The translations under genes were made by a program, and so were the position numbers. Shown piece by piece: positions 17,551 through 25,235 of a stretch of DNA of 64,000 nucleotides (the stretch's first letter is position 1; every line of letters starts with the position of its first letter). Origin of the DNA: Celeribacter ethanolicus (GTDB taxonomy: Bacteria > Pseudomonadota > Alphaproteobacteria > Rhodobacterales > Rhodobacteraceae); assembly GCF_001550095.1 (NCBI RefSeq), contig NZ_LRUC01000010.1, forward strand, positions 1 to 64,000. The letters run 5' to 3'. A model generated the notes under the pieces. That model ran no database searches. It was not told the origin of the DNA and saw only the letters and a program-made list of their open reading frames with translations.

Positions 17551-18945
17551 TTACTTCGTGATGATCTCCGGCCCCATCAGTGTCGTGGGCAGGTAGGTCG
17601 AGATCCATGGCACATAGGTGACGAGGATCAGGAAGACGAAGAGGATCGCGAGGAACGGCAGGGCGGCGCGGACCACGGCCATCATCGGCATCCCCGCAAC
17701 GCCCGAGGTCACGAAGAGGTTGAGGCCCACCGGCGGGGTGATCATCCCGATCTCCATGTTCACCACCATGATGATGCCCAGGTGGATCGGATCGACGCCG
17801 AGTTCCATGGCGATCGGGAAGACCAGCGGTGCGACGATCACGATCAGCCCCGAGGGTTCCATGAACTGGCCACCGATCAGAAGGATGACGTTGACCATGA
17901 TCAGGAACATGATCTTGCCGAAGCCCGCCGACAGCATGGCATTGGCGATCTGCTGCGGGATTTGTTCGTCGGTCAGCACATGTTTCAGGATCAGCGCGTT
18001 GGCGATGATGAACATGAGCATGATCGTCAGCTTGCCCGCATCGAACAGCGTGTGACGCGTGTCCTTGTGGAAGAAGGCGGTGATCAGCGCATAGGGTTTC
18101 GCCAGAAGGGATTTCGGCCCGGTGCCGTCGCGATCCGCCAGCGGCCCCATGTCGCGGTAGATGAAAGAGGCGACAAGGAAGGCATAGACGGAGGCCACCG
18201 CGGCGGCTTCGGTCGGGGTGAAGATCGCACCGGTGATGCCCGGAATGCCGTAGATGCCGACCATGATGATGACGATGAGCATCAGCCCCCAGAAGGCTTC
18301 GCGGAAGGAGCGGCCGATTTCGCTCCAGCCGGCCCAGTCGCCTTTCGGCAGGTTCTTGACCCGCGCGATGACATAGATCGCCAGCATGAGCATGGTGCCG
18401 GCCAAAAGCCCCGGAATGACGCCCGCAAGGAACATCCGCCCGACGGAGACGTCTGTTGCGGAGGCATAGACCACCATAACGATGGACGGCGGGATCAGAA
18501 TACCCAAGGTGCCCGCGTTGGCGATGACACCGGCGGCGAAATCCTTGGTATAGCCCATCTGGCGCATCGCCGTGATGACGATGGAGCCGATGGCCACCAC
18601 GGTTGCGGGCGACGAGCCGGACAGAGCGGCGAAGATCATACAAGCAAACACGCCCGCAATCGCCAGACCGCCGTGGAAATGCCCGACACAGGCGATGGCA
18701 AAGCGCACGATGCGTTTCGCCACACCGCCCGTCGACATGAACGACGAGGCGAGGATGAAGAAGGGGATGGCCAGAAGCGTGTAGTGACCGGCCATGGCCT
18801 GATAGAGCGACTGCGCCACGGAGGCCAGCGAAGTGTCGGAGAACACCAGCAGGAAGATCATGGAGGACAGGCCGAGAGAGACCGCGATCGGCACACCGAT
18901 CAGCAACAGGCCCACCACCATGACGAAAAGAAAGACGACGTCCAT
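17551..18945 (-). CDS. dctM: TRAP transporter large permease (DctM family)
   Basis: The large membrane subunit of a tripartite ATP-independent periplasmic transporter, which moves the substrate using an ion gradient. The 464-residue protein has about twelve hydrophobic helices, beginning with DVVFLFVMVVGLLLIGVPIAV, and the DctM signature regions FAALSGSSPATVVAIGSI and GVIANAGTLGILIPPSI (about residues 110-165). A somewhat long cytoplasmic insert occurs around residues 245-290. Five bases separate it from the small permease gene, so dctP, dctQ and dctM form one operon read leftwards. Confidence 0.93.
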   Translation of the reverse strand: MDVVFLFVMVVGLLLIGVPIAVSLGLSSMIFLLVFSDTSLASVAQSLYQAMAGHYTLLAIPFFILASSFMSTGGVAKRIVRFAIACVGHFHGGLAIAGVFACMIFAALSGSSPATVVAIGSIVITAMRQMGYTKDFAAGVIANAGTLGILIPPSIVMVVYASATDVSVGRMFLAGVIPGLLAGTMLMLAIYVIARVKNLPKGDWAGWSEIGRSFREAFWGLMLIVIIMVGIYGIPGITGAIFTPTEAAAVASVYAFLVASFIYRDMGPLADRDGTGPKSLLAKPYALITAFFHKDTRHTLFDAGKLTIMLMFIIANALILKHVLTDEQIPQQIANAMLSAGFGKIMFLIMVNVILLIGGQFMEPSGLIVIVAPLVFPIAMELGVDPIHLGIIMVVNMEIGMITPPVGLNLFVTSGVAGMPMMAVVRAALPFLAILFVFLILVTYVPWISTYLPTTLMGPEIITK

Positions 18946-18950
18946 TGGGA

Positions 18951-19640
18951 TTATTCCTCGTATTCGCCGTGCGCCACGCGCTCGACTTCGTCTTCGGCCT
19001 CGTGGGACACGATAAGGCTGGATTGTTTGCCCGCCAGAATGCGGATCGTGGCCTGCACCACGCGCAAAAGCATCAGCGCCGCCGAGAAGGGGATGATGAC
19101 ATAGGGGACCACGCGCGGCAGCTTGTCATAGCTGTCGCCATAGTTGATCGCATCTTCGAGCCAGCGGAAGATGCCGAGCATGGGCACCTGATCGGTGATG
19201 TAAAACGCCCGGTCGCGCACGTTCTCGGTGAAGCCCAGCGGGAACCAGCGGCCTTCGGTCGGCTGCAACGCGGCAAAGGGGGCCCAGTAATCCCAGGCGC
19301 CTTTCATCAAGAGCATCGCATAGGCGAGACAGGCCAGCGCCGAAAGCACCGCCATGAGCCGCTGCCCCCGCGTTGGCAGCACGTTGATCAACGCGTCGAC
19401 GCCCAGATGCGAGGTCTTCTTGAACCCGTAGGAAATTCCCAGAAGCACGAGCCAGGCGAAGAGGATCAGCACCACTTCGAGGCCCCAGATCAGGGAATGG
19501 TTGAACACGTAGCGCAGCACCACGTTGACGAAGGTGATGAGCGTCATCACGCCAAGGATCGCCGCGATGACGTTTTCCTCGAGCCCGTCGAAGAACTTCG
19601 CCACCGCCGATTTCGGCAGGTTGTCCTGATATTGTGTCAT
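18951..19640 (-). CDS. dctQ: TRAP transporter small permease (DctQ family)
   Basis: The small membrane subunit that docks the large permease. The 229-residue product has four hydrophobic helices; the central part LIWGLEVVLILFAWLVLLG is characteristic of the family (E-x-x-R-like loop after helix 2 and the W-x-V-LG-x-x-Y pattern). It is longer than typical DctQ proteins (about 170) because of a 50-residue loop between helices 3 and 4. I chose the ATG at 19640; another in-frame ATG at 19712 would add a polar 24-residue lead. The gap to the binding-protein gene is 115 bases. Confidence 0.88.
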   Translation of the reverse strand: MTQYQDNLPKSAVAKFFDGLEENVIAAILGVMTLITFVNVVLRYVFNHSLIWGLEVVLILFAWLVLLGISYGFKKTSHLGVDALINVLPTRGQRLMAVLSALACLAYAMLLMKGAWDYWAPFAALQPTEGRWFPLGFTENVRDRAFYITDQVPMLGIFRWLEDAINYGDSYDKLPRVVPYVIIPFSAALMLLRVVQATIRILAGKQSSLIVSHEAEDEVERVAHGEYEE

Positions 19641-19755
19641 GGAGATTGACCCCTGTTGTCCCTCTGTCGGGTCCGGGGGACCCGTGGCATCCGGCATTGC
19701 GGATGCAGGCAAGGCCCCATCGTCATCGACGGGACCCTGCCATGATGATCAGCGC

Positions 19756-20763
19756 TCAGTGTTTGGCGTTGATTTCCTGCGCCAGCGCGATGTTGTCGGC
19801 GCCCACGTCATCGGTGAATTTCTCCCAGACGGGTTTCATCGCATCGACCCAGTCCTGACGCTGCTCCGGCGTCAGTTCGCGGATCACGCCACCGGCATCG
19901 AGAAGCGCCTGACGGTTGTCGGCGTCGACCTCGTTGATCGCGGCGTTGCGCTCGACGGTCACCTCGTGGAGGATGGTCGCAAGCTGGTCGCGGATGTCGG
20001 CGTCAAGCCCTTCCCACCAGTCGACGGAGGTCACAACCATGTAGTCCAGCAGACCGTGGTTGGTCTCGGTCACCCCGTCCTGCACTTCGAAGAACTTCTG
20101 GCCGTAGGTGTTGGACCAGGTGTTTTCCTGCCCGTCCACGACACCGGTTTGCAGCGCGCCGTAGACCTCGGAGAAGGCCATCGGCTGCGGGCTGGCGTCC
20201 AGCGCGTCCATCTGGGCGACGAGCACGTCGGAGGGCATCACGCGGAACTTGAGACCGGCGGCATCCATCGGTTCCAGAAGCGGTTTGTTGGCGGAGAATT
20301 GCTTCATGCCGTTGTGCCAGAACTCGAGGCCCAGAAGGCCGCGGCGCACCATCGATTCCTTCATCGCCTGACCGGCGTCGGAATTCTGGAATTCCTCGAC
20401 AGCATCCATGTTCTTGAACATGAACGGCAGGTCGAAGATGCGGAACTGCTTGGTGAAGGTCTCGAATTTCGACAGCGACGGCGCGGCCATCTGAACGTCG
20501 CCCTGAAGCATCGCCTCGAGCACCTGGTCATCGTTGTAGAGCGTGGAGTTCGGATAGACCTCGACACAGGCCTTGCCGTCCATCTCGGCATTCACGCGAT
20601 CGGCAAAAAGCTGGGCCGCGATGCCTTTCGGGTGCTTGTCGGTGTTGGTGACGTGGCTGAACTTGATCACCATCTCGCCGTCGTCGCAGCCCGCGGAGGC
20701 GAAAGCGGTGGTGGCGGTCACGGAAAGTGCCAGGGCGGTGGCGGCGGTAGCCAGGAATTTCAT
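19756..20763 (-). CDS. dctP: TRAP substrate-binding protein (DctP family), paralogue 1
   Basis: The periplasmic solute receptor of the TRAP transporter. It has 335 residues with a cleavable signal peptide ending near residue 23 (TAFASA). The binding fold shows FSHVTNTDKHPKG, MLQGDVQMAAPSLSKF, FDLPFMF and the ligand-carboxylate arginine in LKFRV (about residue 172). The overall pattern fits the C4-dicarboxylate group. It is very similar to the neighbouring paralogue at 21065-22066, including long identical stretches, so the pair arose by tandem duplication. It begins the dctPQM operon; tandem DctD-like dyads lie 200-250 bases upstream. Confidence 0.93.
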   Translation of the reverse strand: MKFLATAATALALSVTATTAFASAGCDDGEMVIKFSHVTNTDKHPKGIAAQLFADRVNAEMDGKACVEVYPNSTLYNDDQVLEAMLQGDVQMAAPSLSKFETFTKQFRIFDLPFMFKNMDAVEEFQNSDAGQAMKESMVRRGLLGLEFWHNGMKQFSANKPLLEPMDAAGLKFRVMPSDVLVAQMDALDASPQPMAFSEVYGALQTGVVDGQENTWSNTYGQKFFEVQDGVTETNHGLLDYMVVTSVDWWEGLDADIRDQLATILHEVTVERNAAINEVDADNRQALLDAGGVIRELTPEQRQDWVDAMKPVWEKFTDDVGADNIALAQEINAKH

Positions 20764-20898
20764 GTCTGTCCTCCCATCATGAAATCATATGTCGGTGGGG
20801 TGATCGGGCGGATTTCACCCGCTTCACTCTGCGACAGAGGAAACAAACCCGCCTGCGATCCGACAAGTATTCCTGTGAGATAGATGAAACTTTCTTGA

Positions 20899-20912
20899 AA
20901 ACCATTTGGTTT
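20899..20912. promoter_or_regulatory. Dyad in the dctPQM promoter region
   Basis: AAACCA and TGGTTT form a 6-bp inverted repeat with a 2-nt centre, about 140 bases upstream of the dctP start. It could be a second operator of the operon. No regulator is assignable. Confidence 0.35.
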
Positions 20913-20964
20913 CAGATTGTTACATGAAGGCAAAGACGCATAGCAGGCATGCATCTCACGCAAG

Positions 20965-21015
20965 TGTGCGATTTTCCGCACGCAAGAAAATTGCGTATGT
21001 GTGGAAAATCGCACA
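20965..21015. promoter_or_regulatory. Tandem DctD-like upstream activator sites
   Basis: Two dyads of the form TGTGyG-N6-CGCACr occur at 20965-20982 and 20998-21015. Their centres are 33 bp apart, about three helical turns. The outer halves also form a perfect 12-bp inverted repeat (GTGCGATTTTCC and GGAAAATCGCAC) and the middle contains CGCAA-N5-TTGCG. Tandem sites upstream of a dicarboxylate transport gene are the classic layout for DctD. No GG-N10-GC sigma54 promoter could be found between here and dctP. Confidence 0.6.
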
Positions 21016-21064: not shown

Positions 21065-22066
21065 TCAATGCCGAGCGTTGATCTCCTGCGCCGCAGCGAT
21101 ATTCTCCGCCCCGACTTCGTCCTCGAACAGGCTCCAGACCGGTTTCATCGCTTCGACCCAGGCCCCGCGCTGTTCATCCGTCAGTTCGCGCACCACGCCA
21201 CCGGCGTCGAGGATGCCCTGTTTCGCCTCCATGTTGACCCGCTCGGACTCGCCGTTGCGCGCCTGGGTCACCTCATGCAGGATCGTCGCGAATTGCGTGC
21301 GCACATCGTCCGGCAGGCTGTCCCACCAATCGACCGAGGTCACCACCATATAGTCCAGAAGAAGGTGATTGGTCTCTGTCACCCCGTCCTGAACCTCGAA
21401 GAATTTCTGGCCGTAGATGTTGGAATAGGTGTTCTGCTGGCCGTCCACCACGCCGGTCTGCAACGCGCCGTACACTTCGGGAAAAGCCATCGGCTGTGGG
21501 TTGGCTTTCAGCGCTTTCATCTGTTCGATGATCACCTCGGCGGGCTGCACCCGCATCTTCAGCCCTTCGAGATCGGAGGGCCAGAGAACCGGCCGGTCCG
21601 CCGTGATCTGTTTCAGCCCGTTGTGCCAGAACTCAAGCCCCAAAAGCCCGCGCCGCACCATGCCTTCTTTCATCGCCTGCCCGGTCTCCGAGCTCTGGAA
21701 CTCGTCCACCGCGGCGATGTTCTTGAACATGAAGGGCAGATCGAAGATGCGGAACTGTTTCGTGAACGTCTCGAATTTCGACAGACTGGGCGCGGCCAGT
21801 TGCACATCGCCCTGCAACATCGCCTCAAGCACCTGATCGTCATTGTAGAGCGTGGCGTTCGGATAGATCTCCATACAGGCCTTGCCGTCCATTTCCGTGT
21901 TTACCCGATCCATCAACAGATTGGCCGCAATGCCTTTCGGATGCTTGTCGGTATTGACGATATGGCTAAACTTGATGACGATCTCGCCCGGATCGCAGGC
22001 CGCCACGGCCATGCCAGCAGACGAAACGAAGACGCCGGTCGCCAGCGCGCAAGTCAGAAATTTCAT
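21065..22066 (-). CDS. TRAP substrate-binding protein (DctP family), paralogue 2
   Basis: A second periplasmic binding protein of 333 residues, with a signal peptide ending near residue 22 (GMAVAA) and the same family blocks as paralogue 1: FSHIVNTDKHPKG, MLQGDVQLAAPSLSKF, FDLPFMF and the arginine in LKMRV. Much of the middle and C-terminal part is identical to paralogue 1; differences cluster around residues 150-190, which line the binding pocket in this fold, so the ligand may differ. It has its own 123-bp promoter region and no permease genes of its own, so it probably feeds the same DctQM permease. Confidence 0.92.
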   Translation of the reverse strand: MKFLTCALATGVFVSSAGMAVAACDPGEIVIKFSHIVNTDKHPKGIAANLLMDRVNTEMDGKACMEIYPNATLYNDDQVLEAMLQGDVQLAAPSLSKFETFTKQFRIFDLPFMFKNIAAVDEFQSSETGQAMKEGMVRRGLLGLEFWHNGLKQITADRPVLWPSDLEGLKMRVQPAEVIIEQMKALKANPQPMAFPEVYGALQTGVVDGQQNTYSNIYGQKFFEVQDGVTETNHLLLDYMVVTSVDWWDSLPDDVRTQFATILHEVTQARNGESERVNMEAKQGILDAGGVVRELTDEQRGAWVEAMKPVWSLFEDEVGAENIAAAQEINARH

Positions 22067-22189: not shown

Positions 22190-23425
22190 TCAGGCGCGAT
22201 ACTCCTCCGCCCTCACCCCATGCCGCGTCAGCTTGTCGTAGAAGGTCTTGCGCGGCAGTTTGAGACCCTTGGCCGCCTCCGTCGCATTGCCCTTGTGACG
22301 TTGCAGCGACGCGATCAACAGAGACCGCTCGACCTGCGCCAGTTGCTCCGCAAGCCCCAGCTCCTCCTGCGCCTCCCCCTCCGTCAGCCCCATGGCGAAC
22401 CGCATCGCCGCGTTCATCAGGGAGCGCGCATTGCCCGGCCAGTCCTGCGCCATCAGGCGGGAGATGACATCGGGCGTAATTTCCGGCACCGGCAGGTCGC
22501 TCTGTTCGCAGGCGATGTTGACGTAATGCCGGAACAGCACCGGAATGTCCTCGCGCCGCTCGCGCAGCGGCGGAATGCGGATCACCGCCGCCTCCAGCCG
22601 GTAAAACAGATCGGGCGAAAACCGCCCCGCGCCCGCCTCAGCCGAGAGATCGGCATAGGTCCCGGCGATGAGACGCGGCCGATCGTGGGTTTCCAAAAGC
22701 TCCAGCAGCGCGAATTGCGCCGGGCTGGTGAGCTGTACGATCTCGTCGAGGAACACCGATCCGCCCTCCGCCTGAGCAAAAGCCTGCACCAGCGTATCGG
22801 GCGTCATCGCCGAGGCGGAGAATTTCAGGAAAGGTGCCATCGAACCCGCCGACAAAAGATGCACCACCTCGGCCATCTTCGCCGTCCCCACCCCCGGCTC
22901 GCCGGTCACCAGAACGTCGGAGGCCGAACGCGCCACGGTTCGCGCCGCATCCCGCATCTTTACCGACATCTCGGAGGTACCCCGGAGCAGGCGCGCAGCG
23001 GCATCGCCCTGCTCCACCTGCCGCTTGAGGCGACGGTTCTCCAACACAAGCGCGCGGGTTTTCAACGCCTTCTCGACCACCGCGATCAGGTCCTTGGGCG
23101 CGCAGGGTTTTTCCAGAAAATCGAACGCGCCCGAGGAAATCCCCCGCACCGCCATCGGCACGTCGCCCTCTCCGGTCAGCAGGATCACCGGCAGTTCCGG
23201 GTCCACCTTCTGGGCGAAGTCCAAAAGCGCAAAGCCATCCTTGCCGGGCATGCGGATGTCGGACACCACCACACCGGGAAACTCGCGCGAAATGTGATCT
23301 TTGGCCTCGATGTAACTGCCCGCCAGCGTCGGCACCAGATCGGCCAGTTCCAGCGTCTGCCCCAAGGCCTCACGCACCGAGGCGTCGTCATCGACCAGAA
23401 GTACGCGTTCAATATGTGCCATCAT
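22190..23425 (-). CDS. dctD: DctD-like response regulator lacking the GAFTGA segment
   Basis: A 411-residue two-component response regulator. Residues 5-122 are a receiver domain with phosphoacceptor D56 and conserved T84 and K106. Residues about 145-330 are a reduced AAA+ domain: the Walker A region reads GEPGVGTAK (175-183) with the key lysine displaced, Walker B is kept (GGSVFLDEI, 221-229), and the roughly 20 residues between them that should carry ELFGHE and GAFTGA are missing. A Fis-type helix-turn-helix ends the protein. Without GAFTGA it should not remodel sigma54 polymerase. AGGAGG precedes two adjacent ATGs; I chose 23425. It overlaps dctB by 17 bases. Confidence 0.88.
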   Translation of the reverse strand: MMAHIERVLLVDDDASVREALGQTLELADLVPTLAGSYIEAKDHISREFPGVVVSDIRMPGKDGFALLDFAQKVDPELPVILLTGEGDVPMAVRGISSGAFDFLEKPCAPKDLIAVVEKALKTRALVLENRRLKRQVEQGDAAARLLRGTSEMSVKMRDAARTVARSASDVLVTGEPGVGTAKMAEVVHLLSAGSMAPFLKFSASAMTPDTLVQAFAQAEGGSVFLDEIVQLTSPAQFALLELLETHDRPRLIAGTYADLSAEAGAGRFSPDLFYRLEAAVIRIPPLRERREDIPVLFRHYVNIACEQSDLPVPEITPDVISRLMAQDWPGNARSLMNAAMRFAMGLTEGEAQEELGLAEQLAQVERSLLIASLQRHKGNATEAAKGLKLPRKTFYDKLTRHGVRAEEYRA

Positions 23426-25235
23426 GGACCTCCTGCCCGCCCATAGTTCCGCTGACATCGGCGGGCTGCAATTCGATGGTGAACACCGCCCCGCCCTCGG
23501 GGCGGTTCTCGCCGCGGATGCGCCCTCCGAAGCTCTGCACCAGCCCGTAGGAGATCGACAGACCAAGCCCCATGCCCTGCGCCGCGCCCACCTCTTTCGT
23601 GGTATAGAACGGGTCGAAGATCTTTTCCGGCTCGGCAATCCCCGGCCCGCTGTCCGCCACCGTGAGGCGCGTCGGATCGCCACCCGTCTCGCCCTCAACA
23701 GCCCCCGGGACCAGACGGATCGTGATGTGCTTGTCTTCCACATCCATCATCGCGTCGACCGCGTTCGACAGAAGGTTCATCACCACCTGCTGAAGGCGCA
23801 CCTCGCCGCCCCGCACCCAGACCTGCGCCACCGGCGTCCAGTCAAGCGTCACGCCCGCCCGCGAAATCTTGCCCTGCGTCATCTCCAGCGCCGCCTCGAT
23901 CACACCGGTCAGTTCGACATTGGTCGCGGTCTCCGGTTCCTGGCGGGCAAAGGCACGCAGGTTCTTGATGATCCGTCCCATCCGGCGCGCCAGTTCGGAA
24001 ATGCGCCCGAGATTGTCGGCGGCCTTTTCCGGCCTGTCGCGTTCGAGAAAAGCCTGGGCATTCTCGGCAAAGGACCGGATCGCCATCAACGGCTGATTGA
24101 GCTCATGGCTGATCCCCGCCGACATCTCGCCCAGCGCCGAGAGTTTCCCCGCCTGCACCAGATCGGCCTGCGCACGCTTGAGCCGGGCCTCTGCCTCGTG
24201 ACGTTCATGCACCTCGTGCTGCAACTCCCGGTTGGCGATCTCAAGTGCCTCGGTCCGCGCCGCCACCCGTGCCTCAAGCCGGGCATTGGCCTCCGCAAGC
24301 GTCCGCCGTCGTTCCATGGTGAAGAACAGAAAAGCCGCGAAGACCAAGGCCAGAGCGGCGGCCAGCCCCGCCTGCAACCCCGCCTGCGCGATGACCGGGT
24401 GCAGATCCAGCAAAAGCTCCGCAGTCAGCCCGACGACCGGCAGAGGTTTCGTCAGATGCAGCGCCGGTGACGGGATGTAGGGGCCCATGTCATGGGTCCA
24501 GATGTCGTGCCCTGCCAGAAGATGCGTCCCCCGCACCGGCAAAGCCCCGCCCAGGCCGCCCCTGAGGATCAACTCGGAGCGATTGGCCACGAAGATCACA
24601 CCATAGTCATCGGTGAAATAGATTGCCGACGGCTCCGACGGCCAGCCCCATTCCAGTAATCCGATGTCGACGGACACCAGAACGGCGGCCACCGGCGGCC
24701 CCTCGGGCGAGAACACCGGGGCTGCGAACATGTAGCGGCGGCGTGCTTCCGGATCTACGAAATGCGCGATGCCCAGCGCTCCGTCCAGCGCCCGCGTCAG
24801 CGCTGCCTGCGCGCCTTTCGGCAAGTGGCTTTCGCCTGCGCTCGCCAGCACCTCTCCCGTGGTCGAGACCACCATCATCGACGACGCCCCGGTCTTGTCC
24901 ACCACCCCCTGCAACAGGGCATCGGCGTCAAGCGCCCCGCCATCGGCAGGCGCCGTAACCCGCGCCGTCACCGTCGGGTGATCGGACAAGAACACCGCCA
25001 GCTCGCGATAGCGTTGCAGCCCGGTGGTCAGACGATCTGCGGAAAGCGTCAGATCCGACGTGCCCCGCGCCGCCGCCTGATCGAGGGCGGCGCGAAAGGA
25101 AAACCCGAACACACCCAACCCGAAGATCGCCACGACAATCAGCCCGGCAAGAGCCGTAAACACCCGGCGGCGGGCGGCATGGCGCTCGGCCTCCGCAGAG
25201 GGCGCGCCGGCATGAGGCATTTCCTGTGACGTCAT
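23409..25235 (-). CDS. dctB: DctB-like sensor histidine kinase
   Basis: A 608-residue membrane sensor kinase. Two membrane helices (about residues 25-47 and 305-325) enclose a 260-residue periplasmic PDC/Cache-like sensor domain containing YFTDDYGVIFV and the block before LSLLDLHP-like sequence, as in C4-dicarboxylate sensors. A coiled coil follows, then the HisKA domain with the phospho-acceptor histidine in GISHELNQPL (about residue 385) and a HATPase domain with NLLSNAVDAM, DSGPGI and GLGLSISYGLV. It is co-transcribed with dctD and should report external dicarboxylates to it. The ribosome binding site is weak at the chosen ATG, and 60 bases separate it from the divergent P450 gene. Confidence 0.9.
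   Translation of the reverse strand: MTSQEMPHAGAPSAEAERHAARRRVFTALAGLIVVAIFGLGVFGFSFRAALDQAAARGTSDLTLSADRLTTGLQRYRELAVFLSDHPTVTARVTAPADGGALDADALLQGVVDKTGASSMMVVSTTGEVLASAGESHLPKGAQAALTRALDGALGIAHFVDPEARRRYMFAAPVFSPEGPPVAAVLVSVDIGLLEWGWPSEPSAIYFTDDYGVIFVANRSELILRGGLGGALPVRGTHLLAGHDIWTHDMGPYIPSPALHLTKPLPVVGLTAELLLDLHPVIAQAGLQAGLAAALALVFAAFLFFTMERRRTLAEANARLEARVAARTEALEIANRELQHEVHERHEAEARLKRAQADLVQAGKLSALGEMSAGISHELNQPLMAIRSFAENAQAFLERDRPEKAADNLGRISELARRMGRIIKNLRAFARQEPETATNVELTGVIEAALEMTQGKISRAGVTLDWTPVAQVWVRGGEVRLQQVVMNLLSNAVDAMMDVEDKHITIRLVPGAVEGETGGDPTRLTVADSGPGIAEPEKIFDPFYTTKEVGAAQGMGLGLSISYGLVQSFGGRIRGENRPEGGAVFTIELQPADVSGTMGGQEVHDGTY

Follow-up and report, generated by a model that had tools for sequence, protein, structure and literature searches.

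Activation through sigma54 and activation through sigma70 are usually viewed as separate mechanisms. Regulators of sigma70 promoters without the GAFTGA motif are already known: in HupR of Rhodobacter capsulatus, TyrR, DhaR, VpsR, and Caulobacter NtrC, the motif is lost or changed, and passages of two papers tie these proteins to sigma70 promoters (PMC3162934, PMC10274813). R. capsulatus NtrC, like other Rhodobacterales NtrC and the DctD described here, is an NtrC-type response regulator without the GAFTGA loop; excerpts of PMC10274813 report that it activates via sigma70 and that both phosphorylation and ATP binding are needed. Classical DctD has GAFTGA, a sigma54 box, and dctA, whereas the DctD locus analyzed here has none of these and carries dctPQM instead. 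Among titles and abstract openings in the open-licence literature, we found no report of a GAFTGA-less DctD.

The window is a 64,000-nucleotide stretch of the Celeribacter ethanolicus genome, in which the gene beside the regulator is dctPQM, not dctA. The locus is laid out as follows:

17551..18945, minus strand: dctM, TRAP large permease
18951..19712, minus strand: dctQ-type TRAP small permease
19756..20763, minus strand: dctP2, TRAP solute-binding protein
21065..22066, minus strand: dctP1, extra TRAP solute-binding gene, without the palindrome pair in front
22190..23425, minus strand: dctD-type response regulator, GAFTGA-less, 411 aa, with a receiver, a degenerate AAA+ domain, and a Fis helix-turn-helix
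23409..25235, minus strand: dctB-type sensor histidine kinase, overlapping dctD, with a tentative start at 25235

The neighboring operon is of the DctP-family TRAP type, with C4-dicarboxylate as its putative substrate. Its dctP gene is duplicated in tandem, and dctP1 and dctP2 are 72.5% identical.

The sequence-only reading had described the 411-aa product of 22190..23425 (minus strand) as a DctD homologue with a degenerate Walker A motif (GEPGVGTAK), an intact Walker B, and a loss of about 20 residues holding ELFGHE and GAFTGA; each of these points was confirmed. A domain search assigned the AAA+ domain to the Sigma54_activat type with a lid, and the Pfam Sigma54_activat model matched in two stretches (model positions 3-67 and 89-167 of 168) that skip the GAFTGA part. 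The alignment with GAFTGA-bearing DctD that had been proposed as a check revealed a 19-column gap spanning the part from LFGHE to GAFTGA, together with a second gap before sensor I, which is 12 columns long in most rows (range 8-13). On this alignment, the landmarks of the window protein are placed as follows:

22877..22903, minus strand: degenerate Walker A GEPGVGTAK, residues 175-183, with T at the lysine position
22786..22787, minus strand: junction at about residues 213/214, without some 19 residues that include the GAFTGA loop
22742..22747, minus strand: retained Walker B, D227 and E228 (FLDE)
22684..22685, minus strand: junction at about residues 247/248, without some 12 residues before sensor I

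An AlphaFold model (mean pLDDT 86.6) has one short helix (209-218) between the strand at 199-203 and the Walker B strand; a fold search with this predicted model led to NtrX and NtrC1 and added little. The receiver closely resembles that of the DctD in PDB 1l5y (E 1.9e-34), and its phosphorylation residues and the neighboring dctB-type gene are those of a DctD. The best NCBIfam match was PgtA (NF047793), which aligned at full length in one stretch and has a model similar in length to the window DctD (414 positions vs 411 aa); PgtA membership was rejected at 276.6 bits against a cut-off of 650.

We then compared 66 aligned proteins of the window type, the window's own DctD counted in (clade A); residue counts exclude L149, a DctD with an internal stop. 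The GAFTGA gap is common to all 66. The Walker A lysine is replaced throughout (T in 33, I in 24, N in 4, V in 4, and S in 1), while the three P-loop glycines and a K or R two residues past the lost lysine are retained in 66/66. Walker B keeps D in 63 and E in 64, the sensor II arginine is present in 65, and the receiver aspartate is conserved in every protein. At the positions that we take to be the arginine fingers, the first is lost in 66/66, and the second reads R in 44, K in 21, and L in one. By this pattern, the nucleotide site is remodeled rather than simply decaying. With the loop, the lysine, and the first arginine finger gone, the sequence lends strong support to the earlier expectation that such a protein would be unable to activate sigma54 polymerase. 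Its proposed precedent, R. capsulatus NtrC, is apt in being GAFTGA-less and acting with sigma70, but the parallel ends at the nucleotide site, since ATP binding is needed there according to excerpts of PMC10274813 and the P-loop lysine is lost here, with K/R two residues on; R. capsulatus NtrC also serves another pathway.

Close matches of about equal length were found in 124 of 295 family genomes. Sixty-six of these carriers entered the alignment, and the other 58 were judged by match length, including G009, which was counted despite an internal stop in its match; contig-edge matches in G079 and G220 were left out. Among the best 80 of 571 relatives, same-length carriers include Celeribacter, Pacificibacter, Ruegeria, Roseovarius, Yoonia, Thioclava, and Octadecabacter, and the nearest protein is that of Celeribacter persicus (96% identical). 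Compared with C. persicus, the whole gene gave a dN of 0.025 and a dS of 0.68 (dN/dS about 0.04), and the AAA part gave dN/dS values of 0.033/0.82; the dctD-type gene is under purifying selection. The order dctB-dctD-dctP-dctQ-dctM is kept in 62 of the 66 clade A loci.

A dctP upstream region was obtained for 63 of these loci; no dctP was found in the stretches of L078, L124, and L131. When 55 regions were aligned, two 18-bp palindromes emerged, with the consensus TGTGCGG-N4-CCGCACA; they are followed by an IHF-like element rich in A and T (TAA-N5-TGa), then by CTTGag, and, ahead of the start, by TGGGAGGA, with unconserved columns flanking the aligned motifs. The window entered this alignment as its dctP1 gap, which is without the conserved elements; its conserved control region is instead in the dctP1-dctP2 gap, ahead of dctP2:

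20998..21015, minus strand: predicted distal DctD-type operator, TGTGCGATTTTCCACACA
20965..20982, minus strand: predicted proximal DctD-type operator, CGTGCGGAAAATCGCACA, 33 bp from the distal one
20910..20922, minus strand: IHF-like element, TAACAATCTGAAA
20861..20866, minus strand: predicted -35, TTGTCG, preceded by C, 107.5 bp from the proximal operator center
20838..20843, minus strand: predicted -10, TTTCCT, after a 17-bp spacer
20769..20775, minus strand: Shine-Dalgarno sequence of dctP2, GGGAGGA

With the window taken as the dctP1-dctP2 gap, the site pair was present in 63/63 clade A loci. The spacing was 32 in 19 loci, 33 in 43, and 34 in one, and a small scoring bonus for 32/33 left these counts unchanged. 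The pairs scored 19-24 of 24, whereas neither 315 randomized sequences nor a decoy pattern exceeded 17. In the window's own genome, the palindrome with up to three mismatches occurred at nine places (none in a backward control), and none of these except the two in the window are arranged as a pair. Duplicated dctP, with the pair ahead of the second copy, is also found in C. persicus and C. baekdonensis (L184, L185); in C. litoreus (L197), one dctP copy was found, and the pair lies some 2.5 kb beyond dctD.

Motif discovery by expectation maximization (EM) gave 1103.5 bits for the IHF-like element and 978.7 bits for the promoter, vs 658-692 and 589-610 bits in eight randomized sets each at equal effort, totals that overstate independence because the randomized sets ignore the relatedness of the loci. 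For scoring sigma54, IHF, and alphaproteobacterial sigma70 sites, we used what we take to be their consensus sequences. The IHF consensus was matched at no fewer than seven of nine positions on the expected strand in 49/59 loci and on the other strand in 33/59. The -35 column reads TTG in 59/63 loci and CTTG in 42/63, and the last -10 position is T in 51/63; -35 TTG was found in 18/18 loci from rpoN-bearing genomes and in 41/45 from genomes without rpoN. The window's own -35, TTGTCG, is less typical, and its predicted -10 is weak. CTTGa with a 17-bp spacer fits the alphaproteobacterial housekeeping sigma consensus. Although the -35 was picked by EM independently of the palindromes, its distance from the proximal site center was 104.5-110.5 bp in 51 loci, 93.5-99.5 bp in 11, and another value in one; in 62/63 loci, these distances form two clusters about one helical turn apart. 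Period-wise phase statistics did not single out 10.5 bp, and the phasing claim is that of the two-cluster histogram. Clade A has a conserved operator pair phased to a predicted sigma70-type promoter. Activators of the RcNtrC/HupR kind have tandem sites more than 100 bp upstream of a sigma70-type promoter; clade A shows such sites and such a distance, next to a promoter that is a prediction.

The absence of a GG-N10-GC promoter before dctPQM, as stated in the sequence-only reading, proved true in front of dctP1 (no match in 123 bp); the dctP1-dctP2 gap contains two GG-N10-GC matches, both upstream of the palindromes. The best sigma54 score was 0.68 of the maximum in this gap and 0.55 in the dctP1 gap. 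In the 63-region scan, which used the window's dctP1 gap (the other gap being scored separately), no clade A dctP upstream region reached 0.85; the best, L104 (0.83), was the only one with p ≤ 0.05. The threshold was reached in none of three intermediates, none of three GAFPGA-type loci, and one of ten clade B loci (L173, 0.89, without GC at -12). With the same scoring, 8/11 G[AS]FTGA loci had a box of 0.89-1.0 close to dctB, on the strand divergent from it (L156, L157, L158, L159, L161, L162, L163, and L165; L158 and L159 only in a wider search window). Matches at that level in L164, L166, and L174 lie kilobases away, as do chance matches elsewhere.

We also searched for rpoN by matches over the cut-off of PF04552 and PF04963. 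Among the 295 family genomes, PF04552 was found in 93, PF04963 in 90, and either in 94, leaving 201 (incomplete genomes included) with neither over the cut-off. Carriers of the regulator had rpoN by either model in 29/124 and by neither in 95/124, five of the latter with a PF04552 match below the cut-off; at 98% completeness or more (n = 106), rpoN was detected in 25 carriers and not found in 81. The window's own genome has rpoN, and it was not found in G260 (99% complete), the only other genome of the genus that was searched. Two of nine clade B family genomes had rpoN, as did G206 and G263 but not G057 among the genomes of the intermediates. All 12 outgroup-locus genomes checked had it, ten with a GAFTGA-type DctD, G356 with a motif-less DctD, and G400 with a clade B protein. 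The lack of detected rpoN in most carriers and the result of the 63-region scan give further support to the view that the regulator is not expected to act on sigma54 polymerase.

A tree of 57 proteins, including 24 of the 66 clade A rows (midpoint root; L149 and L159, a near-copy of L158, excluded), supported clade A (100/99), clade B (100/100), and A+B (100/98), with L137 and then L135 + L136 branching between A+B and the GAFTGA-type rows. These three have an eroded loop and keep both Walker motifs and both arginine fingers; their site pairs scored 23 (L135), 20 (L136), and 16 (L137), the last within the random range. Clade B (L138, L139, L140, L142, L143, L145, L147, L148, L155, and L173) is a GAFTGA-less sister clade of ten loci with a divergent dctPQM that shares both gaps with clade A. 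Its Walker A position is K in eight and R in two, and Walker B and the sensor II arginine are lost in 10/10. Single palindromes prevail, most loci having one good palindrome and an IHF-like element, and when the 107-bp distance was applied to clade B and the intermediates, a nearby TTG was found in only some loci. Since the eroded-loop intermediates retain the Walker motifs and the two clades differ, the loop seems to have been lost first and the ATPase site afterwards in two ways. Eight loci have GAFPGA/GAFAGA-like or otherwise altered loops; an excerpt of PMC3162934 notes Pro at that loop position in general.

The operator is not confined to GAFTGA-less regulators. Seven of 11 GAFTGA-type loci, from five genera (L156, L157, L158, L159, L161, L162, and L163), have a dctA homologue beside dctB, a sigma54 box, and the palindrome pair; PF00375 confirms the dctA homologue for L162. 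Their pairs are spaced at 32 or 34 and scored 18-22, values reached by 0/100 randomizations (1/100 for L163). The recognition core PRKT[FL]YDK is common to these seven and clade A, with PRKT in all 66 clade A proteins. The pair was not found in the other four GAFTGA-type loci (L164, L165, L166, and L174), which differ in the recognition core. Thus, the likeness to classical DctD extends from the receiver to the operator and recognition core of the dctA-linked proteins. Unlike in HupR, TyrR, DhaR, VpsR, and Caulobacter NtrC, the operator has been retained here, and related loci from both sides of the proposed switch are available for comparison. L160 (G356, outside the family) has lost GAFTGA, and its pair before dctA scores 21 (0/100 randomizations); no sigma54 box of at least 0.85 was found at this dctA, though the genome has rpoN, and L160 perhaps represents a separate, independent switch.

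We consider it probable, at roughly 0.8, that the DctB-DctD system left sigma54, kept its operators and DNA-binding domain, and acquired a sigma70 promoter; the 29 rpoN-bearing carriers, the window's own genome among them, count against this reading. In such a system, DctB would probably phosphorylate the intact receiver of DctD, and DctD would bind the two tandem palindromes via its conserved Fis-type helix, a step with good support from the sequence. A bend at the IHF-like element and the phased distance of about 107 or 97 bp could bring DctD to RNA polymerase, which presumably carries the housekeeping sigma70 at the CTTG-N17-TTtncT promoter of dctP(2)QM. DctD would then activate by contact or recruitment, rather than by ATP-driven remodeling. 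The AAA+ domain probably serves as an assembly platform that may bind nucleotide and hardly hydrolyzes it. In evolution, the sigma54 contact loop and the -24/-12 promoter would have been lost, and a sigma70 promoter would have taken over.

Several other explanations deserve weight. The GAFTGA-less DctD might be mainly a repressor or be active when unphosphorylated, in the inverted manner of HupR, with phosphorylation relieving or removing its effect; part of PMC10274813 states that VpsR works without phosphorylation, and the title of a reference in PMC3162934 mentions a phosphorylated state of HupR that is inhibitory. Against this, fitness values reported in part of PMC10041152 for Ruegeria pomeroyi in co-culture are all negative for SPO2630, a C4-dicarboxylate TRAP regulator and putative ortholog, and for dctQ/dctM (SPO2627/2626). 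Moreover, most loci have their sites some 100 bp or farther upstream of the predicted -35 rather than on top of the promoter, and the phased distance is one that would suit an activator. We regard this explanation as unlikely, and hardly more likely than one in which another sigma70-family factor, such as RpoH, reads the promoter: the CTTG core found at -35 in 42/63 loci is also typical of RpoH, but the same core with its spacer agrees as well with the housekeeping factor.

The remaining explanations are weaker. The palindromes often directly follow the dctD stop, and their stretch in the window, taken as a single DNA strand, gives a good fold (z -6.2), as sites of another regulator or a transcript hairpin (terminator or attenuator) after dctD might. 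Yet the sites stay near dctP where the dctD-dctP gap is 0.6-4.1 kb (L089, L099, L103, L105, L107, L114, L123, L128, and the window, with its dctP1), and 7/11 GAFTGA-type loci have the pair placed between dctB and dctA, which makes this improbable. Still less credit goes to the idea that DctD works with sigma54 in rpoN-bearing genomes through a different surface; the presence of rpoN in the window's own genome speaks for it, but none of the 63 dctP upstream regions holds a box at 0.85, vs eight of 11 GAFTGA-type loci, and -35 TTG is kept in all 18 loci from such genomes. Motif loss by itself would favor a pseudogene or a sequencing or assembly deletion, the latter named beforehand as a possible refutation. 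We rejected the pseudogene on the dN/dS of about 0.04 to C. persicus, and the deletion on the same gap in 66/66 aligned proteins and on a layout common to C. persicus and dozens of genera, so that both can be set aside as refuted.

The departure from sigma54 that we favor may be one case of a lineage-wide enhancer switch, a broader proposal with about even odds: the tandem operators and IHF bend would have persisted as activator and promoter jointly exchanged sigma54 for sigma70, through stepwise losses and with polymerase contact on one face. The loop would have eroded first, as in the intermediates with intact Walker motifs, followed by loss of the loop, the segment before sensor I, and the arginine finger; in the last step, the two clades would have lost opposite parts of the ATPase site, the Walker A lysine in clade A and Walker B with sensor II in clade B. 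On this proposal, the two-cluster spacing would mean that the activator has to lie on one helix face and contact polymerase directly, without ATP hydrolysis. Because regulators with the same operator stand on both sides of the change, with apparent intermediates between, the change of partner can be tested step by step, and this regulator may record how a gene switch changes its polymerase partner. For a TRAP uptake system of the DctP type, whose C4-dicarboxylate substrate is putative, the analysis also supplies a concrete predicted operator and promoter. In a plasmid search, homologue records (matches below 60%, not of the window type) were labeled "sigma-54 dependent transcriptional regulator", a label that would mislead for the window-type group if our reading is true.

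Two further observations concern other regulators. At about 7866 of L141, which encodes a GAFPGA-type regulator and comes from a genome in which rpoN was not detected, the same pair precedes a gene whose beginning resembles a TAXI-type TRAP binding protein. Among seven other sigma54-activator-like proteins examined in the window's own genome, only L002, on the rpoN contig, has an intact GAFTGA; the loop is eroded or lost in NtrX (L003), in the NtrC-like L008, and in L004-L007.
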